A stretch of DNA of 44,616 bases from a virus: positions 1 through 44,616 of IMG/VR virus record IMGVR_UViG_3300009431_000701, one strand, 5' to 3'. A program made the position numbers and the translations under genes. The notes under the pieces were generated by a model, which was not told the DNA's origin, made no database searches, and saw only the letters and a program-made list of their open reading frames with translations. How positions within the stretch are numbered: position 1 is the stretch's first letter; each line of letters begins with the position of its first letter. This document shows positions 714 through 23,640 of this stretch, one piece after another.

Positions 714-771
714 AGTTCAATGAGTAGATTCGGTGAGAATGATTTCTTCGGTGAAGAAGACCACAACTTCG
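714..771 (+). repeat. 58-bp direct repeat, copy 1
   Basis: These 58 bases are identical to 1736-1793. The repeat starts just before the start codon of the 101-residue gene and covers its first 17 codons (MSRFGENDFFGEEDHNF). The flanking bases on both sides differ, so the match is bounded. Confidence 0.95.
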
Positions 772-1025
772 ATTATGAGGGAGAATACCCTGACGAAGAG
801 CAGGAAGCCATGATGGGTGCGGCAATCCCGGCCGAGATGATGGATCGTTGGAAACGATCAGAGGTTGAACTTGAATCACAGAAGATTAACTTCGTGGTAT
901 TGCGTCAGGCAGTTCAAATGCTGGAACGGTCATGGTTCTGGCGCTTCCGGTCGCTCGAAAAACGTGTCCGTATGATCTGCGATAGTTACTACGCCATGAT
1001 GGATTTGATAGCCCCCGCCGAGTAG
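720..1025 (+). CDS. Small acidic protein of unknown function (101 aa)
   Basis: It starts at ATG 720 with a GAGAGGAAAG ribosome site just upstream and ends at TAG. The N-terminal half is acidic (repeated Asp/Glu, residues 7-30); the C-terminal half is a likely amphipathic helix rich in Arg and Trp (QMLERSWFWRFRSLEKRVR). No family is recognised. The first 17 codons are repeated exactly, at DNA level, inside the next gene, so the two genes are linked by a duplication or recombination event. Confidence 0.75.
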   Translation: MSRFGENDFFGEEDHNFDYEGEYPDEEQEAMMGAAIPAEMMDRWKRSEVELESQKINFVVLRQAVQMLERSWFWRFRSLEKRVRMICDSYYAMMDLIAPAE

Positions 1026-1093: not shown

Positions 1094-2857
1094 ATGGCCA
1101 TACCTATCTTGCCAATTACACCTGACGTTGATGTACTTTTTCAGGATAAAAAGTTCGTTGACTGGGCGAATGACTACCTGCGCTTGATGTGCTACGAGGC
1201 GAGCTACTGGCGGGATTATAGTAAAGTTCGGGCAATAAAACACGCCGCCACGCAAATTGGTGTTACGTTATTTGATCCTAATTGGGATGATCTGTGGTCG
1301 TACAACTATCATTACCAAGGTTTTATGACTGTCACCGATGTCCGATTGACTGTGTTTGCTCGGCCGCTGCATTTTTTGTTTCGCAGGGCGGGTGCTAATA
1401 TGGCTAAAAATCGCAAGCGAAAGCGCAAGAAGTACGCCAACAAAAGGCAGATGAGCCAATATCGATGTTGGGCGGACAACTATTTGCGTCGATTTTACTT
1501 AGAGGTTGTCAAGGTTCGTAACGCTCCAGAGAGTATCAATGCTGGACTTTGGTATGAAGTGCAGATTGCGGCTCGGTCTATGAATACGCACGAGACGTTC
1601 AGGAATCTTGAACGTTTTGCTAAAATTCCGATAACCAATTTTACGATTGACAATAAATCGCTAAATTGTTTTGTTCGTCCTCTTCAACACATCTATAGTA
1701 AAAGCGGAGCCTCGGAATCAGTGGCGGTTGGGCAGAGTTCAATGAGTAGATTCGGTGAGAATGATTTCTTCGGTGAAGAAGACCACAACTTCGTTGCTAC
1801 CGTACCAACTACTCGTGCTCGTGTGAATGTAAGTACGAAGTCGGATTTGGAGACTGCCCCTGCCGAGACTATTGATGTAGCGACCTTTCCAGCGGTTTTT
1901 GAGAGTAAGATTGGTACTGCACAGTTTGAGAAAAATGTTATCAAGATACTGACGCACTGTTTGAAACAAGGTTGGAGTAGTGTCACCAGCCAACAACTTG
2001 CTTCTGTGTTAGGCGTTGACCAGCGTGATTTTGAAGACTGGGCAGACAAGTGTCCAAAGTTGCGATGGCGGCGAGGAAGACAGAAGCCTGACCTTATTTA
2101 TTATTGTCTTACACCAGCAAAATTCCCCAAACCACAAGACGGAGGAAGCCCGATGTCCGAACAACCAGACGATGCTGGCCCACAAACTGCACAAAATCCT
2201 CTAGTCGCCAATCCTGGTTTTGTCGGCGGCTCGAATGTTGATGACAGCACCAGTGTTGATAAGCCGCCAGAGAATAATGCCGAAGCCGACGGCGGCGCTG
2301 ACGCTGGTGCCCCCGGCATCGGTTCAGACGAGTTCGATACTTTGATGACTCAATTCTTGAGCAAGGATAAGGAGAAGCCGTGGCGTTCGACAGAAGCGAT
2401 GGCTTTGGCCACAGGCCAGGACAAGGAACCCGTTCAGGAATGGGCGGACGGGAATCCTGCGCTTGTGCGGCGAGTCAGCAAGCAAGAAGAAGGAAAGGTC
2501 TTCTACGCACTTCTGTCTCGTTTCAAGGAGAAGGAAGAACAGCCGAAGGAAAAAGAGGAGGGGGATAAAGGCAAAGACGACAAGGGGAAGAAGTCACCGG
2601 AGGAGAAGAAACAGGAGAAAACGGATGCCGGTTCCTCTATTACCATGCAGGAAATATTGGCCTTCGCTCGGCTTCATGGGCTGAGTGATAGGTTTGTGCG
2701 GGATATGGATTTCTACGCCAACCGTTTAGCAACACGACATGAAGAGGCGTTTGCTCACCTCACCAAGGCACAGAAACATCTCTGTTCGGCCGTGGCGCTT
2801 ATGCAGAAGACATTGAAGATCAAGGACAAGATGCTGCCCAGCACGGAACAACTTTGA
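1094..2857 (+). CDS. Unknown protein with two internal duplications and an embedded second gene start
   Basis: The frame is open from TTG 1034; I choose ATG 1094 because AAGGA (1081-1085) sits 8 bases before it. Residues below count from TTG 1034. A roughly 80-residue unit occurs twice: about 44-122 (with WANDYLR and VFARPLH) and about 147-229 (with WADNYLR and CFVRPLQ). The C-terminal half carries another pair resembling small winged-helix units: one around 300-362 (LASVLGVD, EDWADKCPKLR) and one around 436-495 (MALATGQD, QEWADGNPALV). A Lys/Glu-rich linker and a helical tail follow. At codon 237 (ATG 1742) the sequence is an exact copy of the start of the upstream gene, so this may be two fused genes, or a 371-residue protein may start internally. 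No named family is recognised. Confidence 0.65.
   Translation: MAIPILPITPDVDVLFQDKKFVDWANDYLRLMCYEASYWRDYSKVRAIKHAATQIGVTLFDPNWDDLWSYNYHYQGFMTVTDVRLTVFARPLHFLFRRAGANMAKNRKRKRKKYANKRQMSQYRCWADNYLRRFYLEVVKVRNAPESINAGLWYEVQIAARSMNTHETFRNLERFAKIPITNFTIDNKSLNCFVRPLQHIYSKSGASESVAVGQSSMSRFGENDFFGEEDHNFVATVPTTRARVNVSTKSDLETAPAETIDVATFPAVFESKIGTAQFEKNVIKILTHCLKQGWSSVTSQQLASVLGVDQRDFEDWADKCPKLRWRRGRQKPDLIYYCLTPAKFPKPQDGGSPMSEQPDDAGPQTAQNPLVANPGFVGGSNVDDSTSVDKPPENNAEADGGADAGAPGIGSDEFDTLMTQFLSKDKEKPWRSTEAMALATGQDKEPVQEWADGNPALVRRVSKQEEGKVFYALLSRFKEKEEQPKEKEEGDKGKDDKGKKSPEEKKQEKTDAGSSITMQEILAFARLHGLSDRFVRDMDFYANRLATRHEEAFAHLTKAQKHLCSAVALMQKTLKIKDKMLPSTEQL
1736..1793 (+). repeat. 58-bp direct repeat, copy 2
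   Basis: Exact copy of 714-771, lying in frame in the middle of the long open frame that ends at 2857. It includes an ATG at 1742 but lacks the good ribosome site that precedes copy 1. Confidence 0.95.
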
Positions 2858-2859
2858 GA

Positions 2860-2872
2860 TTTTATGATAAAA
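2860..2872. promoter_or_regulatory. AT-rich palindrome TTTTAT-G-ATAAAA before the ribosome site of the next gene
   Basis: A 13-base palindrome sits directly in front of the GGAGG ribosome site at 2874-2878. A longer version of the same core (GGTTTTAT-C-ATAAAACC) occurs at 3512-3528. It could be an operator or a small hairpin; nothing else supports a function. Confidence 0.3.
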
Positions 2873-2883
2873 CCGGAGGCTTG

Positions 2884-3309
2884 ATGCCGTTCTACACATT
2901 CGAGACGAAGGACAAAGCCATAGAGGAGCAAGACAGAGTTTTCTTGGTAAAACTGAGCTTTGCCGACTATGATGAGGCGATGTCCGGCAAAGTAACAAAG
3001 GAAGGATGGCGTCGTGGGAAGACTGGTCCCGTTCATCCTAAGACTGAGAAACCTGTCAAGACCTGGCGGAGGTTGCAGGACAATGTAAGTATTCAATTTG
3101 CTCAACCGTGGGAATCATCAAAATGGGATTCCTTTGAATATCGTGCTGGTTACAATATGATGAAAGCTAAGCGAGAAAGGATGTCGGCCGAGGCAAAAAG
3201 TAGTGTTGGGTCAACGCCGATCCAAGACTATGAGCAACAAGCCCTTGGCAGTCCTGGCTTTGATCTTGGGGAACAAGACCTTGACACCCATGAAAACCGT
3301 ATGGAATGA
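2884..3309 (+). CDS. Unknown protein (141 aa) with an FmdB-like N-terminus
   Basis: ATG 2884 is chosen because GGAGG ends five bases before it; the frame is open further upstream from TTG 2854. The opening residues MPFYTFE resemble the start of FmdB-type small regulators (MPxYxYxC), but the zinc-binding cysteines of that family are absent. The rest is hydrophilic and basic in the middle (EGWRRGKTG). It follows the previous gene by 26 bases and is probably co-transcribed. Function unknown. Confidence 0.65.
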   Translation: MPFYTFETKDKAIEEQDRVFLVKLSFADYDEAMSGKVTKEGWRRGKTGPVHPKTEKPVKTWRRLQDNVSIQFAQPWESSKWDSFEYRAGYNMMKAKRERMSAEAKSSVGSTPIQDYEQQALGSPGFDLGEQDLDTHENRME

Positions 3310-3665: not shown

Positions 3666-5855
3666 ATGACCACCCATTCCGACTCAGAACGAACGGTGGT
3701 GGCACAGCCGGATGCCGGGGGCACCAAATCTCCCCAACACGACGCATTCGATGCCATTGCTGGTAAATTCGACCAAGCGTTGTTCCTCAAACTGAATCAA
3801 ACGATGACGTTTGGGGAATACCTCGACCATGCGCTGGGGAATCCCCTCGTGTGCCTTAGCGCTTTCCAGCGCATCTATGACATGATCCTCGTGCCAGGTA
3901 TCGAGAGGTTCAAGCGGTTCAATAGGACTTACACCCGCTACAAGTTCTTCAGTGAACATCCCGAGTTCCCGATCTTCGGTTTGGAACCGGCCATCGACGA
4001 CTTCGTGAAGCACCTGAAAGGTGCGGCAGGCTTCTTCGGGGCGGAAAAACGAATCCTCTTGCTACACGGCCCGGTTGGCTCGTCCAAGAGTACGGCGGTA
4101 CGGGCGCTCAAGCGAGGCTTGGAGGATTACACCCGTATGGATCGTGGCGCTTTGTTTAGCTTCGATTGGATCGACTTGCCGACCGAAGATGACGACGCCC
4201 TCGGCCCGGCGCTGGAACTGAAGAAGGAAGCGCCTTGCCCGATGCAGGACGATCCCATTAAGTTGATTCCCCGTGATCTCCGGCCGGATTTCGAGAATCG
4301 CCTGAATGCCTCCCTCGCCGAGATGCAGCTTAGCGATGATCCCGACATCGAATCCGAGTTGCGCCGCATCTTCAAGATTCGTCTCGACGGCGACCTTAAC
4401 CCTCACGACAAGTTCTTCTACAACGCCTTGCTGAGGCGTTACGATGGGGACTGGGGAAAGGTGATGGCGGATCACATTCGGGTGCGTCGTGTTGTCCTGT
4501 GCGAGGCTGACCGAATGGGCATCGGTACCTTCAGCCCCAAAGATGAGAAGAACCAGGATTCCACGGAACTGACTGGTGATGTCAACTACATGAAGTTGGG
4601 TGCGTACGGTGTGGACTCCGATCCTCGTGCCTTCAACTTCGACGGCGAGTTCATGGTGGCCAACAGGGGCCTCTTGGAAATGATCGAAATGCTCAAGCTG
4701 AACGAGGAGTTCCTTTACGATCTCCTGGGTGCCAGCCAAGAGCGACAGGTGAAGCCCAAGAAGTTCCCGCAGGTGCCCATCGACCTAGCCATCATCGGTC
4801 ACACGAACAACCCGGAATACCAGCGCCTTATCAAGAACGACCGGATGGAGGCGTTGCAGGATCGTACGGTGCGTGTCGACTGGCCGTATGTTCTCCGTTG
4901 GGATGATGAGGTGGCCGTCTTGGCACAGGACTACAATCCCGACAAGGTGCGGCAGCACATTGCGCCTCACACCATCCAGACCGCCGCCTTGTTCGCCATC
5001 CTCACCCGGCTCAAGGTGGAGAAGGGTGCCAAGCTCGATCCCGTCAAGAAGGCCAAGCTGTACAACGGCCAGACGTTGCCCGGCTATACGGAGGATGCCG
5101 TCAAGGAATTGATGGACGCCGAGCCGAACGAGGGTATGGACCAGGGTATTTCCGCCCGGTACGTCCAGAACAAAATCTCCAACGCCCTCGTGTCGCACCA
5201 CGATTACGTCAACCCGTTCATGGTGCTGCACGAAATCAAGGAAGGACTCAAGACTTACTCCCTTATTGGCGATGATGAGAATAAGCGGGCGCTCTACGAA
5301 GCGGCCGTAGACTCTGCCAAGAAGGAACTGGATGAAATCCTCAAGAATGAGGTAAGGAGAGCGTTGGTAATGGATGACGAAGCAATCAACAGGATGTTCA
5401 ACAACTACCTGGACAACGTATTCGCCTACATCAACAAGGAGAAGGTGAAGAACGAGTACACCGGGGAGTACGAAGAGCCCAACGAGCGCCTGATGCGGTC
5501 CATCGAAGAGAAGATCGACGTGCCCGATCAGGGTGTCGATGACTTCCGCCGAAGCATTGCGGCCTACGTCGGTACGTTGACCCGCAACGAAGGCAAGGAA
5601 GCGGTCAAGTGGGACAGCAATCCCGAACTGGCCCGTGCCCTTGAACTAAAATTGTTCGAGGAAACGAAGGACACGATCAAGCTGTCCTCGCTCACCAAGG
5701 TCACTGGCGTCATTGATCCCGATATGCAGGAGAAGATCGATGCGATCAAGACCCGGTTGTGCAAGAACTACGGCTACGACGAGCGTTCGGCTACCGACGT
5801 GCTGAACTACGTTGGCTCGATCTTCGCCCGTGGCGATATGGTCGACGACACGTAA
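3666..5855 (+). CDS. prkA: PrkA family serine protein kinase / AAA+ protein (YeaG-like)
   Basis: A 729-residue protein matching the PrkA/YeaG family (usually about 640-680 residues). A P-loop (GPVGSSKS, residues 135-142) starts the AAA domain; the family-specific segments GTFSPKDEKNQDSTELTG (around 290) and GHTNNPEYQRL (from 378) follow, then the alpha-helical C-terminal region. PrkA was described as a serine kinase and later, in Bacillus, as an ATP-dependent protease; in enteric bacteria it works with YeaH in stress and starvation responses. It starts at ATG 3666 behind a near-perfect AGGAGGT site and leads a three-gene operon with yeaH and spoVR. All AAA motifs look intact, so an active protein is expected. 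Third codon positions look richer in G/C than in neighbouring genes, which hints at separate origin or selection for high expression. Confidence 0.95.
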   Translation: MTTHSDSERTVVAQPDAGGTKSPQHDAFDAIAGKFDQALFLKLNQTMTFGEYLDHALGNPLVCLSAFQRIYDMILVPGIERFKRFNRTYTRYKFFSEHPEFPIFGLEPAIDDFVKHLKGAAGFFGAEKRILLLHGPVGSSKSTAVRALKRGLEDYTRMDRGALFSFDWIDLPTEDDDALGPALELKKEAPCPMQDDPIKLIPRDLRPDFENRLNASLAEMQLSDDPDIESELRRIFKIRLDGDLNPHDKFFYNALLRRYDGDWGKVMADHIRVRRVVLCEADRMGIGTFSPKDEKNQDSTELTGDVNYMKLGAYGVDSDPRAFNFDGEFMVANRGLLEMIEMLKLNEEFLYDLLGASQERQVKPKKFPQVPIDLAIIGHTNNPEYQRLIKNDRMEALQDRTVRVDWPYVLRWDDEVAVLAQDYNPDKVRQHIAPHTIQTAALFAILTRLKVEKGAKLDPVKKAKLYNGQTLPGYTEDAVKELMDAEPNEGMDQGISARYVQNKISNALVSHHDYVNPFMVLHEIKEGLKTYSLIGDDENKRALYEAAVDSAKKELDEILKNEVRRALVMDDEAINRMFNNYLDNVFAYINKEKVKNEYTGEYEEPNERLMRSIEEKIDVPDQGVDDFRRSIAAYVGTLTRNEGKEAVKWDSNPELARALELKLFEETKDTIKLSSLTKVTGVIDPDMQEKIDAIKTRLCKNYGYDERSATDVLNYVGSIFARGDMVDDT

Positions 5856-5893
5856 GCCGTGGGCAATCACCCTGCACTGTGCAGGTATCGCCG

Positions 5894-5926
5894 CCCTGCC
5901 CCGCCCTGAGAAAGGGCGGGGCAGGG
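5894..5926 (+). promoter_or_regulatory. GC-rich intergenic hairpin between prkA and yeaH
   Basis: A perfect 14-bp stem (CCCTGCCCCGCCCT paired with its complement) with a GAGAA loop lies in the 102-base gap. No T-run follows, so it is more likely to stabilise mRNA ends or set relative expression of prkA and yeaH than to act as a classical terminator. A smaller palindrome (CCTGCAC-T-GTGCAGG) lies just upstream. Confidence 0.6.
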
Positions 5927-5957
5927 ATTCCTTCGACCGCCATGAGGAGGTGCAGCA

Positions 5958-7199
5958 ATGCCTCGAAGAATACAAGAAGACCACAAGATGTTCCGAGACG
6001 TGGTGAGTGGTACGACTCGGAAAGAGTTGAAGAAGTGGATCAAGAGCGGCCGGATCATACGGCGACGTGGTGGCCGCAAGATCAGCATTCCCATTCCCCG
6101 CATCGACCTTCCCCACTTCATATTCGGACGCCCCGAAAACGGCTTAGGCCGTGGCCCTGGCGACGGTGGCGATGTGGTGGGCCGAGAGCCAGCGCCGGGT
6201 CAGCAAGGCGAACAGGCGGGTACCGATCCGGGCGATGCCATTGAAGTCGATATCGACATGGAGGAAATCCTCAAGGTCATGGGGCAAGATTGGCAGTTGC
6301 CTAACATGGAGCCCAAGCCCAACAGGACGTTTGAGGAAATCAAGATCAGGTACAACTCCTTGTCGAAAGTTGGCCCGCCGAGTTTGCTTCACAAGCGCAA
6401 GACGCTTTTGCAGACGATCAAGCGCATGTCATCGATGGGGCAGTTAACTCCTGAGAACGCTCGTCTGTTGCCCGGCCACGATGTTCCCATCGTGCCGCTT
6501 ACGCCAATCCGGGACGACATGAGGTTTCGCAAGTGGACGGAGAAGAAGATACCGTCCAGCAACGCCGTGATCTTTTTCGCTCGTGACATCTCCGGGTCGA
6601 TGAGTACCTACAAGTGCGAAATCGTTTCGGACATGGCATGGTGGATCGATATGTGGATTCGCCAATTCTATGACAAGACACAGCGTTGCTACGTCGTTCA
6701 CGACACTCGTGCTTGGGAAGTTGACGAGGAGAAGTTCTACAAGTATCGCTACGGCGGTGGGACCATCTGCTCGTCGGCGATGAAGTACATTGCTAAGCAG
6801 TTGAAGCACAGGTTTCCGCCCGAGACGTGGAACATCTACGTGTTCTACTTCAGTGACGGGGAAAACTGGATGAGCGACAACCCGGAGTTCATCAAGACGA
6901 TCAAGGAAGACTTGAATCCGTCTATCGTGAACCTCGTTGGCATTACACAGATTTTGCCCTGGGGAACTCACGGCCTCAAGGAGTACGTGGACAAGAGGAT
7001 CACGGAAGGCGTTTTGGACAATCGTTACGTTCGCACTGCTGGGATTGACCGACCGGAGAAGGATAAGGAAGACCGCTGGGGTTGGTGGTGGTGGGACGAG
7101 ACTATGGATGAAGGAGCCAGGAACGAGGCAATCAAGCACGCCATCAAAGAATTGCTCGGAACGCACAAGCAAGGTGCGGGCCAGGCAAAAGCCGCTTAA
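5958..7199 (+). CDS. yeaH: YeaH/DUF444 family protein with von Willebrand factor A domain
   Basis: A 413-residue DUF444 protein, the usual partner of PrkA. The N-terminus has the family's basic segment (around IRRRGGRK), followed by a Gly/Pro-rich linker. The vWA domain keeps a complete metal-ion-dependent adhesion site: DISGS (D210, S212, S214), Thr269 in GGGT and Asp300 in FSDGENW. The start at ATG 5958 follows GAGGAGGT. In bacteria this protein is encoded with PrkA and SpoVR, and its vWA domain is expected to bind a partner protein through a divalent ion. Gene order here (prkA, yeaH, spoVR) is the same as in bacterial operons. Confidence 0.93.
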   Translation: MPRRIQEDHKMFRDVVSGTTRKELKKWIKSGRIIRRRGGRKISIPIPRIDLPHFIFGRPENGLGRGPGDGGDVVGREPAPGQQGEQAGTDPGDAIEVDIDMEEILKVMGQDWQLPNMEPKPNRTFEEIKIRYNSLSKVGPPSLLHKRKTLLQTIKRMSSMGQLTPENARLLPGHDVPIVPLTPIRDDMRFRKWTEKKIPSSNAVIFFARDISGSMSTYKCEIVSDMAWWIDMWIRQFYDKTQRCYVVHDTRAWEVDEEKFYKYRYGGGTICSSAMKYIAKQLKHRFPPETWNIYVFYFSDGENWMSDNPEFIKTIKEDLNPSIVNLVGITQILPWGTHGLKEYVDKRITEGVLDNRYVRTAGIDRPEKDKEDRWGWWWWDETMDEGARNEAIKHAIKELLGTHKQGAGQAKAA

Positions 7200-7217
7200 C
7201 CTGGGAGGTGCGTAACT

Positions 7218-8888
7218 ATGGGAAGCTCAAGTGGCAATACCATGTTGCATGGGTCGCCGATCCTGCTCGACGACAATACCGTGCCGGGTGTGAAATACAC
7301 GCCCCAATTGGAAGAGATTATCCCGAGGGTCATTCAGGCATGTTTGGACTTCGGGCTTGATCCTTACCCGCCCGTCGTGGAATTACTGACCTATGACGAC
7401 ATTTCGGAGATCGCTGCTTACGGCGGCTTTCCGGTGCGGTTCCCGCACTGGTCCTTCGGGATGGAGTACGAGGAACTCAGCCGTGGTTATGAGCACGGGA
7501 TGCATAAGATTTACGAGATGGTCATCAACTCGAACCCCTCGTACATCTACTGCCTGGACAGCAATCCTTTGCTCGACCATGTAACGGTCATCGCTCATGC
7601 CACTGGCCACAGTGATTTCTTCAAGAACAACGCCTGGTTCGAGCCCACCACCGAGAACTCTTTGAACGAGTTGGCCAACCACGGTAGCCGGATTCGCCGG
7701 TACATGGATCGTTGGGGCAAGGAGAGGGTGGTTACGTTCATCGACTGGGTTCTTTCCATCGATGACTTGCTTGACTTGGCGGCCTCTTGGGAACGGCGAC
7801 AAGTCAAGGAATTGCGGGTCAAGGACAAGCGTGAGTACCACTATCCTCGCCGCTTGAAAATTCCGGCGACGGATGGTGAAGACCATGATTACATGGACAC
7901 GTGGATCAACGATGACAAATGGCAGGAGCGGGAGCGAGAGCGTGTCCGTCGCTTGGAAGCTATCAAGGAACTGGGGCTCTTCATGGAGAAGCGGAAGGAC
8001 GTGCTTGGTTTCCTCGTGGAACATGCCCCATTGGCGGCCTGGCAACAGGACGTGATTGCCATGTTGTACTGTGAGGCGCAGTACTTCGCCCCGCAGGCCC
8101 TTACTAAGATGCTCAACGAAGGCTGGGCCAGTTACGTCGATTACAACATCATGGCCCGCAAGCACTGGGCTGGCGGTGACGGCATCTACGACTATGCCAA
8201 GCACAAGATGGGTGTCCTCGGCGGCAAATACTCGATGAACCCCTACGCTCTTGGCTTCAAACTCTTCCTTGAGATTGAGGAGCGATGGAACAAGGGCAGG
8301 TATGGCCGAGAGTACGAGTGGTGCGAGAACATGCTCAAACGCAAGCACTGGGATACCAAAGCTGGCCTTGGCCACGACAAGGTGTTCGAGGTGCGTGCGG
8401 TCCACAACGATCTCACCGCCATTCACGAGTTCGTCGACCAGGACTTTGTGGACAAGTACGAAATTTACGTTTGGGAGAAGTTCCCATTGCCCGACGGTGG
8501 CTTTGAGTACCGCATCAAGACCAGGGACGTGAAAGAGATCAAGAAGATTCTCATGCAGCGGTACAGCAATGGTGGCCGACCTGATATCCGGCTTGTCGAT
8601 CCCAACTACGCCAATAAAGGCATCTTCCTTCTGGAGCACCAGTGGGACGGCCGGATTTTGGCGACAAGATATGCCCAGGCGACTCTGATGAACGTCTGGA
8701 ATGTCTGGAACAACGGCGGAATCGCCTCCAAGCGCCCGGTGGCCATTATCACCAAAGACAAAGACGGGAAGGAGTTTATCCACGTTTCGGTGGGCCAGAA
8801 ACCTGAGCAAAACCGCAGAATGACCCACAAACAGTTCGAGGAAGAATTCGCCGAGCTTCCTAAGCAGAAAGAAGAAGAAACATCATAA
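7218..8888 (+). CDS. spoVR: SpoVR family protein
   Basis: A 556-residue protein matching SpoVR/YcgB along its length: the N-terminal region with YGGFPVRFPHW, a conserved HATGHSDFF segment with His127 and His131 that may bind metal, and the DWVLSIDDLLDLAAS region. SpoVR was named from Bacillus spore-cortex mutants; in Gram-negative bacteria it goes with PrkA and YeaH and its biochemical role is unknown. It starts 18 bases after yeaH behind GGGAGGT and ends before a GC-rich hairpin and a terminator, so it closes the operon. No truncation or frameshift is seen. Confidence 0.93.
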   Translation: MGSSSGNTMLHGSPILLDDNTVPGVKYTPQLEEIIPRVIQACLDFGLDPYPPVVELLTYDDISEIAAYGGFPVRFPHWSFGMEYEELSRGYEHGMHKIYEMVINSNPSYIYCLDSNPLLDHVTVIAHATGHSDFFKNNAWFEPTTENSLNELANHGSRIRRYMDRWGKERVVTFIDWVLSIDDLLDLAASWERRQVKELRVKDKREYHYPRRLKIPATDGEDHDYMDTWINDDKWQERERERVRRLEAIKELGLFMEKRKDVLGFLVEHAPLAAWQQDVIAMLYCEAQYFAPQALTKMLNEGWASYVDYNIMARKHWAGGDGIYDYAKHKMGVLGGKYSMNPYALGFKLFLEIEERWNKGRYGREYEWCENMLKRKHWDTKAGLGHDKVFEVRAVHNDLTAIHEFVDQDFVDKYEIYVWEKFPLPDGGFEYRIKTRDVKEIKKILMQRYSNGGRPDIRLVDPNYANKGIFLLEHQWDGRILATRYAQATLMNVWNVWNNGGIASKRPVAIITKDKDGKEFIHVSVGQKPEQNRRMTHKQFEEEFAELPKQKEEETS

Positions 8889-8913
8889 GCTGCCGGGTCT
8901 CTGCGCAGCAGCC

Positions 8914-8945
8914 CGCCTCGCCCGGACAAATGGCCGGGCGAGGCG
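8914..8945 (+). terminator. GC-rich hairpin after spoVR (no T-run)
   Basis: A perfect 12-bp stem (CGCCTCGCCCGG and complement) with an 8-base loop. It has no T-run and probably acts as a 3' end stabiliser or partial pause site ahead of the stronger terminator at 8993. Confidence 0.5.
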
Positions 8946-8992
8946 TCACAAAGCACCTCCTGGGGTCGCCCGAGCGGGACGGCCCTTCCCGG

Positions 8993-9027
8993 AAACCCCG
9001 CCGTGAGAACGGCGGGGTTTCTTTTTT
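8993..9027 (+). terminator. Rho-independent terminator of the prkA-yeaH-spoVR operon
   Basis: A 12-bp stem (AAACCCCGCCGT with its complement), a GAGA loop, then C and a run of six T. This is a textbook intrinsic terminator and separates the operon from the clpP-like gene. Confidence 0.9.
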
Positions 9028-9081
9028 ACGCCAAGAGTACATAGAGGGTAGCTCTATTACTTTGAGCGTGGGGGGGGTTGG

Positions 9082-9735
9082 ATGGCGGCGAAGAAAAAGC
9101 AGTTGACAAACTCGGATCAAACCCAACTTCTGCACGATATACACAACTACGGAATTAACATACACACTAGGGAAATCTTCATTGCTGGGCACATGGAGGA
9201 TTCGATTGAAGAAGACCCTGGCGTAGACTATCGTGCGGCTCAGGTGTTTCTGAAGAACCTCAGTGTGTTGGAGATGTTGGGTCGCTCGAAGATCACCATC
9301 CACATGCAGATTGATGGGGGATGTTGGCAGAACGGTCTGGCAATTTTTGACGCTATGCGGGCAGCCAAATCACAGATAATCATACTCGCCTACGCTCAGG
9401 CATCTTCGATGAGCGGGGTGATTCTCCAAGCCGCCGATCATCGCATTATGATGCCCAATACCCACTTTATGATCCACTATGGTTCGATGTTTGCCGGTGG
9501 GACGGCTCATGCCGCCTCGGAGGCTGTGCGGTTTAACGACCGGGAGTGCGAGAAGATGCTCAACATCTTTGCCGAGCGAGCCGTTGAGGGGCCGTTTTTC
9601 CGGTCGAAGCGCTGGGGTGTTAAGCGAGTTGCTGAGTACCTTGATCGGGAAATGAAAGCCCGTAGCGACTGGTATTTGACGGCGGACGAAACGGTTGATA
9701 TGGGGCTCGCTGATGGGATTTACGGAAGTTACTAA
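9082..9735 (+). CDS. clpP: ClpP-like serine peptidase (family S14)
   Basis: A 217-residue ClpP homologue. The catalytic triad is intact: Ser109 in QASSMSG, His132 in FMIHYGS and Asp196 in RSDWYLTADE. The family's C-terminal GLADGIYG segment is present. Bacterial ClpP forms a 14-mer that degrades proteins fed by ClpX or ClpA; phage homologues can instead process virion proteins during head maturation. No ClpX-like gene is in this window, so the partner would be the host's or encoded elsewhere. ATG 9082 is preceded by a G-tract. Its own promoter was not identified between the upstream terminator and the start. The nearby tmRNA, whose tag ends in -MAA, makes a proteolysis role plausible. Confidence 0.9.
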   Translation: MAAKKKQLTNSDQTQLLHDIHNYGINIHTREIFIAGHMEDSIEEDPGVDYRAAQVFLKNLSVLEMLGRSKITIHMQIDGGCWQNGLAIFDAMRAAKSQIIILAYAQASSMSGVILQAADHRIMMPNTHFMIHYGSMFAGGTAHAASEAVRFNDRECEKMLNIFAERAVEGPFFRSKRWGVKRVAEYLDREMKARSDWYLTADETVDMGLADGIYGSY

Positions 9736-10253: not shown

Positions 10254-12845
10254 ATGAAGTTTGAAACTTGCGGCCTTGAGCAGCTTCACCGCCACAGCGA
10301 TTTCAGTCTCTTGGATGGCTTAGCTACTGTTGAGGAATACGCCGAGTATTCCAAGGCGGTAAACCAGAATTATCTCTGCATCACAGATCATGGGATGATG
10401 GGTGTCATCCCACGACAAATTCGTGCTTGCGACAAGCACGGCCTCAAGCCTCTCTTTGGCATTGAGGCGTACATCAACAACGAGCAGCCTAGTATTACTA
10501 CCGAGGCTGAATACAAGAAGCATGTTGCTACCCTTTTGGAAGAGGAGCAGAAGCGGCTTCGGAAGTCCCATCACTTGTTGATGATCGCCTCGAATGATGC
10601 GGGTTACGCTAATCTGGTCACGCTTTCTTCTTGGGCCTTTGAGTTTGGTTATGGTGGTGTCCCTCGCCAGCCCCGTCTTACCCATGACCAGCTAACGAAG
10701 CACAAGGAAGGCATCATCTTTTCGTCGTGTTGCTATCTTGGCGAGATTGGTTATGCGTTTGAGCATCACGGCCGAGATGCTGCCGAAGACATGCTTCAAA
10801 AGTATCTGGCGATGTTTGGGGAGAACTTCTACCTTGAAATCATGCTTTTGGATTTCAAGAAGCAGAAGCCCTACGACGTGTGGCTCATTTCGATGCATGA
10901 TAAGTACCACATTCCTCTTATCGTCACGCAGGATTGTTTAGTTGCTGGGACGCTTGTATCGACTAAGCGGGGGCTTATTCCTATTGAGGAGATTGTTGTT
11001 GGTGATTTGGTTTTGACACACCGCAATCGTTATCGCAAAGTTGAAGTAGTTGGTAAAAGGAGAGCCAAGAACCAGGAGTATATTTGTCGGGTTAGGACAA
11101 AGGCTGGGACATACGCTTACGAAAGTACACATCTTCATAAAATGTGGGTAGCAACAAGGTCTGGCGAGGATTGGGAGTTTGATTGGAAGCCAACTGAGAG
11201 AATTGATTCCTTAGTAGATCATTTGGTGGTTCCTAAGATACCACAACATATGGTTTTTTGTGATGACGCTCTTACGCATATTGACGTTATGGATTTCCTA
11301 GAGGAAACGAGTTTCCAAATAGGAAGTTCATACCAAAGCAGTCAAAGCGGAAATATGGGGTGTCGGCTTCAATTCAATGAAGCCTCCCAGGAGTTTAGAT
11401 CATATAGGGGTTGGGACAGAAGTTGCGAGACGGTAATACCTAGGCGATTAGTTGTAGATGATGATTTTTTGAAGGTTCTTGGTTGGTATATTGCAGAGGG
11501 ATGGAGTGATAGGGGTAGTAATCAGGTAGGGTTTGCTCTTCATTTGGGAGAGCAACACATCGCAGATTGGTTAATTAGTTATTTTAGTCAATACGGTATA
11601 AAAGCCAAGAGTTATCAAGTAACAGAGAAAGGCATTGCTGTCCGATTCTCATCAGTGGTTTTTAATCGTCTCTTTTCAAAGATGTGTGGTAGTGGTGCGA
11701 CCAACAAGCACTTGCCCGATCCTGATGGTTCTGGCTTTTTACGAAGTTGGAGCAAGGAACAGTTGGTTATTATGCTTAGGAGTTATTGGGAAGGCGACGG
11801 TCGGGAACTGACTTCTAGTGGTTTTAGCTTTGACTCCACGTCTAGGAAATTGATCTTTGAGATCGCCACTGTATTGAATGCTTTTGGTTTGTTTGCATAC
11901 CCATCTGTAGCGTCTCCACAAAATGAGAGTTGGTCTGATAACTGGTGTGTTGCTTTATCAGGAGAGAGGGGAAGAGAGTTTCAGCGTTTGATTGAGCATG
12001 GTATTTGTTCGCCCGCTTCTCATAAGCATGTTGTTGACCTTGATTCCTATTGGTTGGTGCCAATAAAGAGAATCGAGGAGATTGCCTATGACGGGTTTGT
12101 TTACGATCTTCAGGTCGAGGAGGACCACTCGTTTACCGCAAACCTAGTCGTGAGTAGTAACTGCCACTACTGCAAGAAAGAAGACGCCAAGTATCAGCAG
12201 TACATGTTGATGACTCGCACGAAGAACACGGTGCACGACATTGAGAAGGCGAAACAGCAGGGAGGTGCTGAAGAGCGTTTCTTCGAGTTGCAGGACACGA
12301 ACTTGTGGATGAAGAGCGAGGATGAACTAAACGAGAAGTGGTTTTTGGACTATCAGGACGCTATACCTTACGAACTATTCTGCGATGCGAAGCGCAACAC
12401 GGTTGAAGTGTGTCGAAAAGCAGAGGGCGTTGAGATCGACCGGAGCATCAAACTTCCTCAGTTGTCTGATGCGAACGCCAGGTTGTTAGAGGCGATGGGG
12501 AAGGGGATGAAGTGGCGTGGCTTATGGGGTAAGCCGAATTACATGAATCAACTCAAGGAGGAGTATGAATTGATTTGTCGGAAGGACTTCTCCAGTTATT
12601 TCTTAATTACCAAGAAGATCACGGACGAAGCTCGCCGTATCTGTCCAAAAATTTTGGGATGGGGTACGGGGGGCGAGGCTATAGGTCCAGGGAGGGGGTC
12701 GGCAGTTGGCTTCTTAACATGCTTTGTGTTGGGCATTACTGACGTTGATCCGATCAAGCACGACTTACTACCAGAGCGTTTTCTGAGTGATGCTCGTGGT
12801 GGCCGCCAGTTGAAATTGGAGTTTGAAAGTGAGCCGATCAGTTGA
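10254..12845 (+). CDS. dnaE: DNA polymerase III alpha subunit (DnaE), N-terminal part, with intein
   Basis: The 863-residue precursor begins with a PHP domain (HRHSDFSLLDG from residue 12, CITDHGMMG) and ends in the first part of the polymerase palm, with the family motif GPGRGSA (about residue 811) and PERFLS. It stops just before the PDIDMDF segment that carries the catalytic aspartates; that segment begins the second gene at 19762. An intein (residues 228-636) interrupts the PHP motif that normally reads NDxHY, so splicing would give TQD-CHY. Spliced length is about 454 residues. The short tail after PERFLS has no intein start, so this is not a cyanobacterial-style split intein. Translation is probably controlled by the hairpin at 10215-10249. 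Confidence 0.92.
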   Translation: MKFETCGLEQLHRHSDFSLLDGLATVEEYAEYSKAVNQNYLCITDHGMMGVIPRQIRACDKHGLKPLFGIEAYINNEQPSITTEAEYKKHVATLLEEEQKRLRKSHHLLMIASNDAGYANLVTLSSWAFEFGYGGVPRQPRLTHDQLTKHKEGIIFSSCCYLGEIGYAFEHHGRDAAEDMLQKYLAMFGENFYLEIMLLDFKKQKPYDVWLISMHDKYHIPLIVTQDCLVAGTLVSTKRGLIPIEEIVVGDLVLTHRNRYRKVEVVGKRRAKNQEYICRVRTKAGTYAYESTHLHKMWVATRSGEDWEFDWKPTERIDSLVDHLVVPKIPQHMVFCDDALTHIDVMDFLEETSFQIGSSYQSSQSGNMGCRLQFNEASQEFRSYRGWDRSCETVIPRRLVVDDDFLKVLGWYIAEGWSDRGSNQVGFALHLGEQHIADWLISYFSQYGIKAKSYQVTEKGIAVRFSSVVFNRLFSKMCGSGATNKHLPDPDGSGFLRSWSKEQLVIMLRSYWEGDGRELTSSGFSFDSTSRKLIFEIATVLNAFGLFAYPSVASPQNESWSDNWCVALSGERGREFQRLIEHGICSPASHKHVVDLDSYWLVPIKRIEEIAYDGFVYDLQVEEDHSFTANLVVSSNCHYCKKEDAKYQQYMLMTRTKNTVHDIEKAKQQGGAEERFFELQDTNLWMKSEDELNEKWFLDYQDAIPYELFCDAKRNTVEVCRKAEGVEIDRSIKLPQLSDANARLLEAMGKGMKWRGLWGKPNYMNQLKEEYELICRKDFSSYFLITKKITDEARRICPKILGWGTGGEAIGPGRGSAVGFLTCFVLGITDVDPIKHDLLPERFLSDARGGRQLKLEFESEPIS
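10935..12161 (+). other. Intein 1 (409 aa, LAGLIDADG homing endonuclease type) in DnaE N-part
   Basis: The intein runs from Cys228 (CLVAGTLVSTKRGLIPIEE, block A) to Asn636, followed by extein Cys637. Block B is GTYAYESTHLHKM; the C-terminal block has DLQVEEDHSFTANL then VVSSN. Two dodecapeptide motifs of a LAGLIDADG endonuclease are present: LGWYIAEG and LRSYWEGDG, each with its acidic residue. The next-to-last residue is Ser instead of the usual His, as in the fast Npu DnaE intein (SN/C). It should both splice and home. Confidence 0.93.
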
Positions 12846-16465: not shown

Positions 16466-16827
16466 GGGGGTGTACTGGTTTCGACGGGCTTCACTGAAAG
16501 CCGGTTGCGTGTCGTGGTTGGTCAGCAGGCCACGTTAAAAGCCGACCAAAATATTTCAAATGCCGAAGACGTACCTCTTCGCATGGCTGCCTAGAAACGG
16601 GTAGCCCGAGTTGATAGCTCTAGTCGGAAGGGTTAGAAAACTCGTCGCCAAGTCCGACTGGGATTGAGTCATTGCCCGCCACGCTCAATCTAAGATGTGT
16701 TGTGGGCTGGTCGTCGGTTAATCGTGTTGTTCCGAGTGATCGGCGGTGAGACTCAAAAGAACGACTACACACGTAGACGCTGACTGGATGGCTGTACCGG
16801 ACAGGGGTTCGATTCCCCTCACCTCCA
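16466..16827 (+). ncRNA. ssrA: tmRNA (transfer-messenger RNA)
   Basis: The 5' end GGGGGTG pairs with CACCTCC at the 3' end to form the 7-bp acceptor stem (one G-U). The conserved TGGTTTCGACGGG follows the 5' end, and the T-arm GGTTCGATTCC precedes the 3' end. The tag frame starts at GCC 16541 and reads ADQNISNAEDVPLRMAA, ending at TAG 16592-16594. The 3' CCA is not fully encoded after the stem. Length 362 fits the family. tmRNA rescues ribosomes stalled on broken mRNAs and marks the product for proteolysis. The tag is long and ends in -MAA rather than the common -LAA. Confidence 0.97.
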
Positions 16828-16831
16828 TTTG

Positions 16832-17472: not shown

Positions 17473-18792
17473 ATGAAAACCTGCTTTGTCTACAATTTGA
17501 ACTGGTCCCGTGGTTTGCATTTGGGGGCGGCTCGTGTTCTGCTGCTTAACTGGGCTGCTGCAAAGAAGGCAGGTGGCCGTGTTGTGTTGATCTGCGATGA
17601 TTTGGATCGGTCTGGGGAGAACGACGGTTCGCACATCTATCAACTCATTAGTTGGCTGAGTGAGGGTCTCGATCCCGGTTTATGTGAAGAGGGGCCATAT
17701 CATAATGTTCATTTCAGTCAGGATTACGCTTCCGCCGTAGGGACTTTGTTAAGTCTGGGGTGGGCATATCGAGATTACGCCACGCCTAGTGAAATTCATG
17801 CAGAGCAGCAGGCGACGAAGATTGGCGAGCCATTTCGTTACAGTCGAAAATTTGCTGGTTTTACTGACGAGGATTGCAAGCGGTGGGAAGCCGAAGGGCG
17901 TAGGTCGGTGATCCGTTTGAAGATGCCTCGGGATGTGGGTGGGTCCGTCAATCGGGAGAGTCTTGTTCTCCAGGACGTTCTTCATGGTTCGACTTGTTTT
18001 GAGTTGTCGGAAGAGCATGACCATGTGATATGTCGGGCTGATGGTAGGTACACTTCCTACTTAACGTTGCCAGTGAACTATACTTTGCGGGGAATTGATT
18101 TTGCTTATGTGGACACACGGCACAAGCAGAGTATTCCCGCTCAGTTGTTTATTGCTCAACGATTGGGTTTGAAGTTGCCGAAATTTGTACATGTGCCTTT
18201 CTTATTAGAGCCAGACGGCCGAAGGCGGTTCGCACATTATCGTCAGCGGAAGTACATGAATGACGAGGCATTTGCCGATGTTTACCAATTAGGCATGGCG
18301 ATTGACAGCGAGCTTACCCAAGTTGTGGGTTATGGCTTGTTCTCCCCGTGCTATCTGGAGTTTTATCGCCGCATTGGTTGTTTGCCAGAGGCGATGCGTC
18401 ATTATCTTCTGGGATCAACAATATGTCGTCCGGCTTCGTTATTGAAGCAAGAAGAGCCGTTGGACGATGAGGGTGTGATTTCTCAGTTCCTAGTGTCGGA
18501 TGTCAACTCGGAGCCTGAATCGTTTGATATGGGTCGCTTATGGCGCATCCAGCGGAACTACATGCGAGGTTGTAGTTTTGCTCGTAAGTGTTGGCTCGTC
18601 AATGAGTTTTTACGGGCCGTGAAGCTCTCTGATTTCTGGCCGATCTGCTATCCAGAGCATCCTCCTGATGTTCTGGAATCTCTTGTCGGGGGTTTGTCGA
18701 ATGAGCTTGTGGTAGGTGGAGATATTCTACGCCTTACCGATTACTTTGACGATGACCTCTCTCTTCGAGACGGTCTTGGCGAATCTGGATAG
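17473..18792 (+). CDS. Glutamyl-tRNA synthetase-like protein
   Basis: A 439-residue class I synthetase of the GluRS type. The HIGH region is GLHLGAARVLLLNW (residues 14-27), followed by CDDLD where GluRS has RIEDTD, and the conserved order continues with WLSEGLDPG, GWAYRDYATPSEI and DGRYTSYL. The KMSKS loop is degenerate (HYRQRK around 258). The connecting and anticodon-side domain is recognisable (GCLPEAMRHYLL, ESFDMGRLWRIQRNYMRG). It charges or once charged tRNA, probably with glutamate; the altered HIGH flank and KMSKS loop leave specificity open. It may instead modify tRNA or capture it. It is a single-gene unit between a terminator and its own promoter. Confidence 0.85.
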   Translation: MKTCFVYNLNWSRGLHLGAARVLLLNWAAAKKAGGRVVLICDDLDRSGENDGSHIYQLISWLSEGLDPGLCEEGPYHNVHFSQDYASAVGTLLSLGWAYRDYATPSEIHAEQQATKIGEPFRYSRKFAGFTDEDCKRWEAEGRRSVIRLKMPRDVGGSVNRESLVLQDVLHGSTCFELSEEHDHVICRADGRYTSYLTLPVNYTLRGIDFAYVDTRHKQSIPAQLFIAQRLGLKLPKFVHVPFLLEPDGRRRFAHYRQRKYMNDEAFADVYQLGMAIDSELTQVVGYGLFSPCYLEFYRRIGCLPEAMRHYLLGSTICRPASLLKQEEPLDDEGVISQFLVSDVNSEPESFDMGRLWRIQRNYMRGCSFARKCWLVNEFLRAVKLSDFWPICYPEHPPDVLESLVGGLSNELVVGGDILRLTDYFDDDLSLRDGLGESG

Positions 18793-19761: not shown

Positions 19762-22700
19762 ATGACAAAGAAAGAAGAACTGTTAAAGCGATGCGTGAAG
19801 CGGTTGCAATCGCTGGGGCACGTAAATGACGGTCGTTACAGAGACCGTCTCAAGTATGAATTGATCGAAATTGATGTTCAGGAGAAGTACGAATACTTTC
19901 TGGGCCATTTTCATAAGAAGACCCACTGGGCAAAAAACGATCACAACCTCCTTGTTCCTTACCTTTTGGGCCTCTGCCCGGACTTTGACATTGAGCAAGA
20001 GCCTGGCTCGGTGATGGGTGAGTATCCTGATATCGACATGGATTTCTTGGTTTGTGTGCGGGATTATCTACGCAACGAGTGGGCACCCAAGGAATTTGGT
20101 AAAGACAATGTGGCTCATATCGGTACTTACCAGACTTATGTTCTCAAGCAAGCGTTGATTGACATGGCCCGAGTTTTTGGCTTGGATCGTGACGAGATAC
20201 AAGTTATTACGAAGCAGTTTGCAACGAAGGACAATGAGGGGGACTTATTAACATGGGAGAAGGCTCAAGAGTTGTATCCGGCCTTCAAGAAGTGGTGTCA
20301 GAAGTATCCTGAAGCGGCGGACGCTGCGCACAAATTGCAAGGTCGTATTAGGAACATGAGCCAGCACGCTGGGGGTTTCATCATTTCTAGCAAGCCGTTG
20401 AAAGGCTTTGCTCCGCTAGTGAGGAACAAAAAAGACGACTCTTTGATGACAGCGTGGCCGGAGGGGCAGACTTCGCAGGATTTGATGCAGGTAGGTTTGG
20501 TGAAGTTTGATTTGCTGGCTAGTGAGATGCAGGAACAGATCGTCGATTGTATTGGTTTGGTTTTGGAACGACATGGTTTGGAGGGTATTTGCACGGTGCC
20601 GGGCGGGCCTACTTGGTCTGACGATTCTTATCTGGACGATATGAAGGCGATCAAGATGGCAGATCGTAGTGATTTGCGATTCATTTTCCAGTTCGACTCG
20701 GATGGTATACGTCGCCTGGTGAAATCAGGCGGCGTAGATCGGTTTCAGGATTTGGAGGCGTATTCGGCATTGTATCGACCGGGTCCGCTGAACAATAAAG
20801 TACACGATGTGTATTGCAGACGCAAGAAAGGCTTGGAGGAGTATGAAATACACCCGGTTCTTCAAAAGTATTTGGCCAAGACTTATGGAGTTATGTGTAT
20901 CCACGAGGACACGTTAATTTCATTGGCAGATGGTAGGCAGATGCCGATCAAGCGTGTTCGCAGAGGCGATATGGTTCACTCGGTGAATTTGGTGGATAAG
21001 GTTGTTGGGCACAAGGAGTGTCACGGATGTGGTCCGACTCGTGTTAGTGACGGTCTTAAAATGACATTATCAAATGGGTATTCTGTCGTCCTTACTAGCG
21101 ACCACAAAGTGCTAACGTATGAAGGAATGAAGCCAGTAGGGCAGTTGGATGAGAATGATCTGATAGCTGCGCCAGCAATTTTGCCACATTGTAGCAATAC
21201 TGATTTGCCTGACATTTCATGGCTTGGTGATTGGCGTGATGCTGCGTACTTGTTTGGTCAATTAGTGGGAGACGGTAATTTTGGCACTGGTTCGACTTTG
21301 TGCACTGGAACTAAACGCAATCATGATATTGTTGTGCGGTGGATAAAAGGTAGATTTCCTAAACTGTTTTTGCACGAATATTTTCACTGTCGTTCGTGGT
21401 ATGTTGGCATTTCGTGTTCTGATTTATTAAACCGTGATGGTTATGGCAATAGAAAGACAAAATGGCATAAGTTATTAGAGGATATGTGTCTTAAAAAGAG
21501 TTGTAAAGAGAAGTTTGTTCCCGACGCTATATTGTCCGCAACTGATGATATTCGTGCGGCGTTCTTGTCGGGGTTAGTTGATTCCGATGGGTGTCTTTTT
21601 GTATCTGGCAAGCGTAATCAAATTTGTTTTTTTACTTCTGCCTCTGAGCGATTACTACATGGTATTAGGCAGTTATTGGCTGGTTTCGGCATTGTATCGG
21701 CCCAGCGAAAGAATCGGATTTATGTGAATGATACAGAGAAGTTTTCTGATGTTGTTGGTGAGTTTTTGGTGGTTAAGAAGTTTGAAGGTCGCTTAACAAA
21801 TGGCGGACATTCTAGTTTTGTTCCCAAGTGGGCAATTCGTGAGAAATGTCAATTTTCTGGCGTATCGCAGAGGCAATTCTGTAAGGAACACAAAGTTAGT
21901 AGAGGGGTGATGCGTACCGTTCGTAATCTAGTGACCCATAACGTAGCAAATCGATGCGGTGTTGACTGTGGCGATTTGAGGTATTATCCGGTTAAACGCC
22001 TTGAGGTGGTTAAGGACCAGAGGTTTTATGGGATGTCGGTTGCCGATTATCACAATTTGGTTGCTAATGGCATTGTTGTTAGTAATTGTTACCAAGAGCA
22101 GATTATGCAGATATTACACGCAGTGGGTAAGGTGCCTTTGCGTGATGCATATGATGTGGTGAAAGCGATCTCCAAAAAGAAAATTGAGAAGTTTGCCAAG
22201 TACAAGGAGACGTTCATTGGGAACGCCCAGGTGGTGTTAGGTATTTCACAAGAGGAAGCTCTCAAGTTCTGGAAGCAGATTGAGGAGTTTGCGAATTATG
22301 GTTTTAACAAGGCTCATAGTTGTGCCTATACTCATCAAAGCTCTCGCCAGTTATGGTTGAAAGCACATTTCCCATTGGAGTTTTATTGCACGATGTTGAA
22401 TCATGTGCGAGGAGATGTTAAGAGGTCTTTGCATGAGAAGATTCGAGACTGTAAGCGAAATTCCGAGTTGCATGGGGTCAAAGTCAATCCGGTGAACATC
22501 AACAGGTCATGCATGAACTTCTGTATCCCTGATGGTGAGGATGAAGTCTATTTCGGTTTCTCGAACATCAAATTTGTCGGCGAGGATGCTGGTTCCAGGA
22601 TTGTGGACTTACGGGAAGAGGACGGAGATTTTGAGAGTTTTCGGGATTTCTTGGATCGCTTTGGCACCGATGCTCGTGTAGTTCAGTCATTGGTGGCCTT

Positions 22701-23640
22701 GGGGGCGTTTGACGATGCTGATCCTTTGACTCTGTGGCGGTACTATGGGTTCTACAAGAACCATGCGAAGAAGCGCCAGGAGCGAATTAAACGGTTCAGT
22801 ACCGCAATGGGGAGATATCAGGAGCAGTATGACGAATTGGTAGATGACGGCCAAGTTGTTCATGAAGAGTCAATAGATGCCGCTCTGGAGCATATTGATA
22901 AGGATAGCGAAGCGGCGAAGAAGCTCCGGCGTCTCAGAGGCAACTACCGCCGATCTGTGACTCGTTTTCAGGAAAACTCAGTTGTCGATCAGAATATCAA
23001 ATCCCTCTCAGAATTCGCTGAGAGCCCCGTAGAATCGTCCATTAAGGAAGAGGTATACGAGACCCTAATTGATAAAGAAAAGGCAGAGATGCAATTCTAC
23101 GGCTTCTGTTGGCGTAATCCGCTGGATGTATGCGAGGACGCTGAAGGTTATACCTTCGAGCAGGCCAGAGACTTACCACAGAATAGAGAAGCTGGCTATC
23201 CGGTCGAGGGCCTCATCCATGAGGTTAAGGACAAAACTTCTGCGAAGGGCAATAAGTTCCGTGTCTTGAAGTTGGTAGATGCAAATTGGGAGATGGCGTT
23301 GGTGTATGTGTGGGCAGAAGAGAAAGAGCGATTCAAAGACGAATTCAAAGAGGGAAACATTGTGAGGTTGAGGATTTTGCCGCCCTGGTACAAGTTCAAT
23401 CATTTCCAGCTTCTGTCGTTTCCTGCTTACTTAGGTCGCAAAGTGCCTCCCCCCGAATCGGATTTTCGTGTGGTTGTGTTGTATCGGGAAGAGGCAGAAT
23501 TGCCAACTGAATTGGTGACTGTCGAAGAAGATGAAAGTCCGGTTACTCTCAATATAATGAAACAGTCAGGATTTAGGAGCGATGATGTCCGACAACAAGC
23601 CGACGAACTGTACCGAGAAGTCAGCGAGTACTTTAACTGA
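19762..23640 (+). CDS. dnaE: DNA polymerase III alpha subunit (DnaE), C-terminal part, with intein
   Basis: A 1292-residue precursor with all three polymerase aspartates: D90 and D92 in PDIDMDF and D250 in VKFDLLA. It continues through the fingers, the QSSRQLWLKAHFPLEFYCTML region, helix-hairpin-helix segments, and an OB fold near the end (EGLIHEVKDKTSAKGNKFRV). Intein 2 interrupts the YGVMxYQEQ motif. The first 88 residues look like a decayed second copy of what the N-part gene already contains (RDRLKYEL, YFL, WAK, LVPYLLGL) but lack GPGRGSA. Spliced length is about 895 residues. No ribosome site precedes ATG 19762. The protein must pair with the N-part encoded 7 kb upstream. Confidence 0.92.
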   Translation: MTKKEELLKRCVKRLQSLGHVNDGRYRDRLKYELIEIDVQEKYEYFLGHFHKKTHWAKNDHNLLVPYLLGLCPDFDIEQEPGSVMGEYPDIDMDFLVCVRDYLRNEWAPKEFGKDNVAHIGTYQTYVLKQALIDMARVFGLDRDEIQVITKQFATKDNEGDLLTWEKAQELYPAFKKWCQKYPEAADAAHKLQGRIRNMSQHAGGFIISSKPLKGFAPLVRNKKDDSLMTAWPEGQTSQDLMQVGLVKFDLLASEMQEQIVDCIGLVLERHGLEGICTVPGGPTWSDDSYLDDMKAIKMADRSDLRFIFQFDSDGIRRLVKSGGVDRFQDLEAYSALYRPGPLNNKVHDVYCRRKKGLEEYEIHPVLQKYLAKTYGVMCIHEDTLISLADGRQMPIKRVRRGDMVHSVNLVDKVVGHKECHGCGPTRVSDGLKMTLSNGYSVVLTSDHKVLTYEGMKPVGQLDENDLIAAPAILPHCSNTDLPDISWLGDWRDAAYLFGQLVGDGNFGTGSTLCTGTKRNHDIVVRWIKGRFPKLFLHEYFHCRSWYVGISCSDLLNRDGYGNRKTKWHKLLEDMCLKKSCKEKFVPDAILSATDDIRAAFLSGLVDSDGCLFVSGKRNQICFFTSASERLLHGIRQLLAGFGIVSAQRKNRIYVNDTEKFSDVVGEFLVVKKFEGRLTNGGHSSFVPKWAIREKCQFSGVSQRQFCKEHKVSRGVMRTVRNLVTHNVANRCGVDCGDLRYYPVKRLEVVKDQRFYGMSVADYHNLVANGIVVSNCYQEQIMQILHAVGKVPLRDAYDVVKAISKKKIEKFAKYKETFIGNAQVVLGISQEEALKFWKQIEEFANYGFNKAHSCAYTHQSSRQLWLKAHFPLEFYCTMLNHVRGDVKRSLHEKIRDCKRNSELHGVKVNPVNINRSCMNFCIPDGEDEVYFGFSNIKFVGEDAGSRIVDLREEDGDFESFRDFLDRFGTDARVVQSLVALGAFDDADPLTLWRYYGFYKNHAKKRQERIKRFSTAMGRYQEQYDELVDDGQVVHEESIDAALEHIDKDSEAAKKLRRLRGNYRRSVTRFQENSVVDQNIKSLSEFAESPVESSIKEEVYETLIDKEKAEMQFYGFCWRNPLDVCEDAEGYTFEQARDLPQNREAGYPVEGLIHEVKDKTSAKGNKFRVLKLVDANWEMALVYVWAEEKERFKDEFKEGNIVRLRILPPWYKFNHFQLLSFPAYLGRKVPPPESDFRVVVLYREEAELPTELVTVEEDESPVTLNIMKQSGFRSDDVRQQADELYREVSEYFN
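20896..22086 (+). other. Intein 2 (397 aa, LAGLIDADG type) in DnaE C-part
   Basis: Runs from Cys379 (CIHEDTLISLADGRQMPIKR) to Asn775, followed by extein Cys776. Block B is SVVLTSDHKVLT; the end is VADYHNLVANGIVVSN. The two endonuclease motifs are LFGQLVGDG and LSGLVDSDG. As in intein 1 the junction is SN/C. The insertion point is the conserved GVM-YQEQ motif, where loss of the intein is hard without exact excision. Confidence 0.94.

Follow-up and report, generated by a model that had tools for sequence, protein, structure and literature searches.

An old PrkA-YeaH-SpoVR trio kept together in a lineage of huge phages

In the virus record IMGVR_UViG_3300009431_000701, the genes for PrkA, YeaH (DUF444) and SpoVR lie next to one another on the same strand, in the order common in bacteria. 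The window analyzed here is the entire 44.6-kb IMG/VR record (44,616 nucleotides). Comparison with viral and bacterial relatives indicates that this trio is a strongly linked, old core module of a huge-phage lineage, within which it appears to have been kept vertically. The three genes are as follows.

3666..5855, + strand: PrkA, 729 amino acids, an AAA+ ATPase with a PrkA C-terminal domain
5958..7199, + strand: YeaH/DUF444, 413 amino acids, a VWA-domain protein with a full metal-ion-dependent adhesion site (MIDAS)
7218..8888, + strand: SpoVR, 556 amino acids, with HxxxH and NEGWA motifs

All three open reading frames (ORFs) are intact, and their domains score about 8-12 times the curated Pfam cut-offs in bits. 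PrkA matches both AAA_PrkA (PF08298, E = 7.9e-69) and the PrkA C-terminal domain (PF06798, 1.9e-70), together with PHROG 22605 (8.1e-90) and the three PDB entries 9xip, 9xiq and 9xir (30 chains, named "Serine protein kinase"; 1e-200). Its Walker A motif, GPVGSSKS, spans G135-S142, an EKNQD segment lies at residue 294, and a ribosome-binding site (Shine-Dalgarno, AGGAGG) precedes the gene. YeaH matches DUF444 (PF04285, 4.4e-66), and its AlphaFold model resembles VWA domains in the PDB (best E 4.7e-8, probability 1.00). The predicted fold is thus that of a VWA domain with a complete MIDAS, formed by D210, S212, S214, T269 and D300, none of which varies in an alignment of 38 sequences from phages and bacteria. 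SpoVR matches PF04293 over the length of the profile (7.1e-100). The histidines of its HATGH motif (residues 127-131; H127 and H131) and the glutamate of NEGWA (E301) are likewise invariant in the 38-sequence alignment, and this His-His-Glu site may bind metal. No PDB relative of SpoVR was found by sequence and no significant PDB match by fold; dipeptidyl peptidase III appears in the top PDB rows, but because it matches only at E 0.6 and probability ∼0.1, a zinc-peptidase-like (gluzincin) fold is not claimed. An earlier note on this DNA, made from its letters, had described a complete and intact trio and had located the PrkA P-loop and EKNQD segment, the YeaH MIDAS and the SpoVR HxxxH; every one of these positions is correct.

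The trio stays together in viral relatives. A PrkA alignment scan of IMG/VR gave 484 viral matches, and linkage was counted among the best 80 of these, at the 64 loci with at least 6 kb of sequence downstream. YeaH and SpoVR follow PrkA, in that order and on its strand, at 64/64 of these PrkA-ascertained loci; a search for adjacent PrkA, DUF444 and SpoVR genes in huge phages had been proposed in the earlier note. A separate SpoVR scan gave 39 viral loci, nearly all of which have the PrkA-YeaH-SpoVR order, as does the published phage LR756511 (595 kb). The window proteins are ∼45-62% identical to those of their viral relatives, and maintenance of gene order at this divergence argues for long purifying selection on all three genes together. 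A DnaE homolog lies near the trio at 45 of the 64 PrkA-ascertained loci and a ClpP homolog at 28. In seven large records the trio is separated from the portal or terminase by 110-330 kb, with DnaE close by.

Phylogenies separate these copies from their bacterial counterparts. The bacterial comparison set comprised the best 80 PrkA relatives, from Chloroflexota, Planctomycetota, Myxococcota, Bdellovibrionota and others; most of these also have the trio, arranged in this order. For each protein the huge-phage copies form one clade with bacteria outside it, with Shimodaira-Hasegawa-like approximate likelihood ratio test (SH-aLRT) support of 97 (PrkA), 100 (SpoVR) and 100 (YeaH); the phage clade that the earlier note looked to trees to reveal is therefore found three times. 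The window is the first branch within the phage group in the PrkA and SpoVR trees, and no tree places its proteins among the bacterial copies on short branches. The trees were made quickly and contain long Thermus phage branches; their robust result is the huge-phage group. The window's best matches are phages for all three genes: for YeaH, near-complete phage copies score 314-451 bits and bacteria at most 262; for SpoVR, complete single-ORF phage copies score at least 527 bits and bacteria at most 389.

Inteins interrupt the trio proteins of some relatives. In SpoVR (loci L028-L033 and L036-L040) they occupy two conserved sites, after N104 and after A304 within NEGWA, and one PrkA (L003:3536-6787) carries an intein within FDGEF/NRG. 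The NEGWA-site intein is shared with Chloroflexota bacteria (L048-L051, L062 and L064) at 35-46% identity, about that of the host protein itself.

In bacteria, the trio is associated with starvation and stress. In E. coli, adaptation to nitrogen starvation depends on yeaG, which also represses the toxin-antitoxin genes mqsRA and dinJ-yafQ (PMC4664914). PrkA of B. anthracis is required for sporulation and forms ATP-dependent oligomers, but its kinase and protease activities in vitro are negligible (PMC13001217). The YcgB/YeaH/YeaG triplet is co-conserved, and yeaH (and ycgB, in unpublished data) affects antimicrobial peptide resistance (PMC2375023); the trio is also found in haloarchaea (PMC3102087).

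Our starting points are the observed integrity of the trio, its conserved active residues, its linkage, its phage clade and its context. Because the three genes have stayed linked and kept their active residues across deep divergence, they are likely to work as a unit and to help the virus. The best explanation, in which we place middling confidence, is that this old, vertically kept trio is an infection-time stress machine that holds a starved or stressed host competent. PrkA would be an AAA+ ATPase that assembles with ATP, and YeaH its VWA/MIDAS partner, docking substrates as in other AAA+/VWA pairs. Such pairs, for example RavA-ViaA and NorQ-NorD, remodel client proteins. SpoVR would be the third component, either effector or client, with its possible metal-binding site. 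Since the genes adjoin DNA polymerase and lie far from virion genes, production of the machine would fall in the replication phase. Its targets would be host proteins, handled as the bacterial trio handles them under starvation and stress, and a host held metabolically competent would allow a long, costly infection to be completed. What we infer is that the proteins assemble into one machine, when it is made, what it acts on and how the phage benefits. By its position beside replication genes and its distance from virion genes, the trio looks like host-takeover or replication cargo; a role as a virion part is disfavored by that distance, and an infection-time machine is preferred to it. The earlier suggestion that a phage carrying the trio could keep a starving host productive is plausible.

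Several points weigh against this explanation. The phage trio is known from its genes alone, and even for the bacterial trio the molecular function is unsettled. The ClpP and DnaE neighbors would also fit a role in phage replication, the proposed metal site of SpoVR comes from conserved residues alone, as there is no PDB fold match, and the linkage count draws on the best-scoring portion of the PrkA matches. A further reading, that the fixed, phage-adapted trio is a core infection set that overrides host starvation or toxin-induced growth arrest, is held tentatively, as a possibility rather than an expectation.

The genes around the trio bear on a different role. Those adjoining it are:

720..1025, + strand: small protein 5′ of PrkA, kept in relatives (cluster of 27 loci)
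2854..3309, + strand: small protein 5′ of PrkA (cluster of 27 loci), with a zinc-ribbon domain in one member
9082..9735, + strand: ClpP-like serine protease (Pfam CLP_protease, 2e-18; PHROG head-maturation/ClpP families)
10254..12845, + strand: N-terminal part of DNA polymerase III alpha (PHP, 2.1e-34), with an intein (Hint_2, LAGLIDADG_3)

The trio may have been repurposed for ATP-driven remodeling of replication proteins or for head maturation, together with the ClpP-like protease and DNA polymerase. The conservation of both neighbors, the retention of the trio across the lineage at such modest identity to the window and the long branches between phage and bacterial copies in the PrkA and SpoVR trees are consistent with such a change of role. 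However, the virion genes of the large records are distant, more than half of the loci have no ClpP near the trio, and the key residues are those of the bacterial forms, so there is no sign of altered chemistry; we regard repurposing as rather unlikely. Less probable still is that the phage copies poison the host's own trio complex and so block starvation dormancy. The nearest bacteria do have the same trio, whose proteins presumably form complexes, but a poison needs only one partner and tolerates lost catalysis, whereas here all three are intact with their active residues.

The earlier note also proposed a recent bacterial source, on the basis of GC-rich third positions. The compositional observation is real: third-position GC (GC3) of the trio is 0.71-0.75, compared with ∼0.5 in most neighbors (0.50-0.51 in the two window DnaE ORFs), and it is the one point in favor of a recently acquired or passenger cassette. 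The source itself is rejected on the phage clade in three trees, the bit scores and the order kept at all 64 PrkA-ascertained loci. The window lies inside that clade, as its deepest branch for PrkA and SpoVR, phages are its best matches for all three genes, and PrkA GC3 exceeds DnaE GC3 in 27/33 relatives too (mean +0.06), which leaves recent acquisition very improbable. The excess in relatives is weaker and mostly confined to PrkA, so high GC3 was rejected as a lineage-wide mark of strong expression. Exchange with a GC-richer related phage could account for the window's larger gap. On a related 381-kb contig (L128-L146), GC3 reaches 0.74 at about 270-322 kb against a contig mean of 0.31; this sharp change could stem from a foreign segment or from a join made in assembly.

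The layout of the unit was said to copy the bacterial operon in order and spacing. The order does; the spacing does so only roughly, with gaps of 102 and 18 nt in the window compared with medians of 45 and 12 nt in bacteria and 398 and 2 nt in related phages. No sigma-70-like promoter was found upstream of the trio. Two structures follow it:

8914..8945, + strand: long GC-rich hairpin with a 12-bp stem directly 3′ of SpoVR, from sequence and RNA folding
8991..9028, + strand: intrinsic terminator, a 14-bp stem (8991-9022) followed by U6

The 142-nt stretch 3′ of SpoVR (8889-9030) folds at −85.4 kcal/mol (z −6.2). The trio thus has its own strong terminator, as the earlier note had stated, yet a terminator of this simple form follows the trio in just 3/39 relatives.

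Gene order also identifies the window as phage. Its genes, which include peptide deformylase, IF-3, DnaE with inteins and a phage metallopeptidase, are colinear with the 381-kb contig (about 114-151 kb) and with the start of a 343-kb contig, and the order is partly kept in LR756511. Terminase, portal and capsid genes, which the earlier note advised looking for, are absent from the 44.6-kb window; terminase, T4-type portal or sheath genes are present on its relatives. The 343-kb contig has a terminase, a T4 portal (1.4e-76) and a tail sheath, and LR756511 a terminase and a portal (1.2e-74). The T4-type portal occurs together with PrkA on five further contigs of the trio lineage (299-527 kb). 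A T4-type portal scan gave one contig above 250 kb (527 kb), which has PrkA; smaller portal-bearing contigs, which are fragments, are without it. Because gene order is shared with contigs bearing terminase, T4 portal and sheath, the window is taken to be phage, and it is a fragment of a huge-phage genome, in a lineage with genomes of at least 300-600 kb. That the contig is bacterial, or the trio a chimeric assembly join, is scarcely credible: despite the missing virion genes and a perfect 58-nt direct repeat upstream (714-771 and 1736-1793), independent large phage contigs show one and the same gene order, from the small genes upstream through the trio, ClpP and DnaE to many genes downstream, and the repeat lies outside the trio. 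Through this repeat, the start of the gene at 720 recurs in frame inside a 607-aa ORF (1034-2857), as the result of either duplication or an assembly artefact.

Four other features of the window stand apart from the trio. DNA polymerase III alpha is split between two ORFs, 10254-12845 and 19762-23640, that lie ∼6.9 kb from each other and each contain an intein. The break falls within the DNA_pol3_alpha domain, with no split intein evident at it, and the gene is also split in the 343- and 381-kb relatives. A phage-encoded transfer-messenger RNA (16466-16830; Rfam, 4.8e-60) carries the tag ADQNISNAEDVPLRMAA, and a 439-aa ORF (17473-18792) has a Glu/Gln-tRNA synthetase-like catalytic domain (PF00749, 4.2e-27). 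A complete thiamine-pyrophosphate (TPP) enzyme with three TPP domains (38444-40069), a metabolic gene unusual for a phage, is 47% conserved in the 381-kb relative, where it lies beside IF-3.

Among known systems, the bacterial and archaeal yeaG-yeaH-ycgB module shares three families, order, strand and key residues with the window trio, and the nearest copies found (Chloroflexota, Planctomycetota and Myxococcota) have ∼50-56% PrkA identity to it. In contrast to that module, the window trio is phage-borne, forms a separate clade for each gene and adjoins phage ClpP and DnaE. LR756511 has the same trio in the same order, at 57/48/50% identity, with the same flanking genes, but its DnaE is a single ORF where the window has two. 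Thermus phages phiYS40, TMA and MN1 and their relatives also cluster DUF444-like, SpoVR and PrkA-type "serine kinase" genes; these differ in their ∼30% identity, in their order (YeaH, SpoVR, PrkA) and in forming a separate branch of the PrkA tree. Phages LR756502, LR745206 and LR756504 (635-642 kb) have adjacent PrkA and DUF444 genes, and SpoVR in the genome, but are of a YeaG-like type, 61% identical to Enterobacter YeaG and ∼25% to the window; theirs is probably a separate acquisition. As the Thermus phages represent a third type, the trio was probably gained by phages on more than one occasion. In the Ralstonia jumbo phage RsoM2USA, SpoVR (ORF28) and PrkA (ORF30) were earlier annotated two genes apart (PMC8504454), and differ in having gammaproteobacterial best matches. 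The record of Enterobacter phage LAU1 (L047, 1-3308) opens with host-typical yeaG and yeaH, possibly a leftover bacterial flank in a prophage record.

Phage copies of these genes have long been annotated, as the SpoVR and serine kinase of phiYS40, the existing PHROGs families and the copies in other huge phages attest. In viral data from a marine oxygen-minimum zone, spoVR is reported to be the most abundant sporulation gene (PMC8940887), and the main text of a paper on sporulation genes of human-gut phages mentions neither spoVR nor prkA. The earlier remark that no phage function had been described for the trio holds in that the searched literature, which mostly excludes subscription papers, reports no test of one; nor does it portray the three genes as a fixed core of this lineage. 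What may be new is this fixed linkage; the families, their order and probably the mechanism were known already.

Bacteria and haloarchaea carry the trio widely. The phage lineage provides a diverged, natural set of trios to compare with theirs, and an opening to ask whether host starvation is something that phages actively manage.

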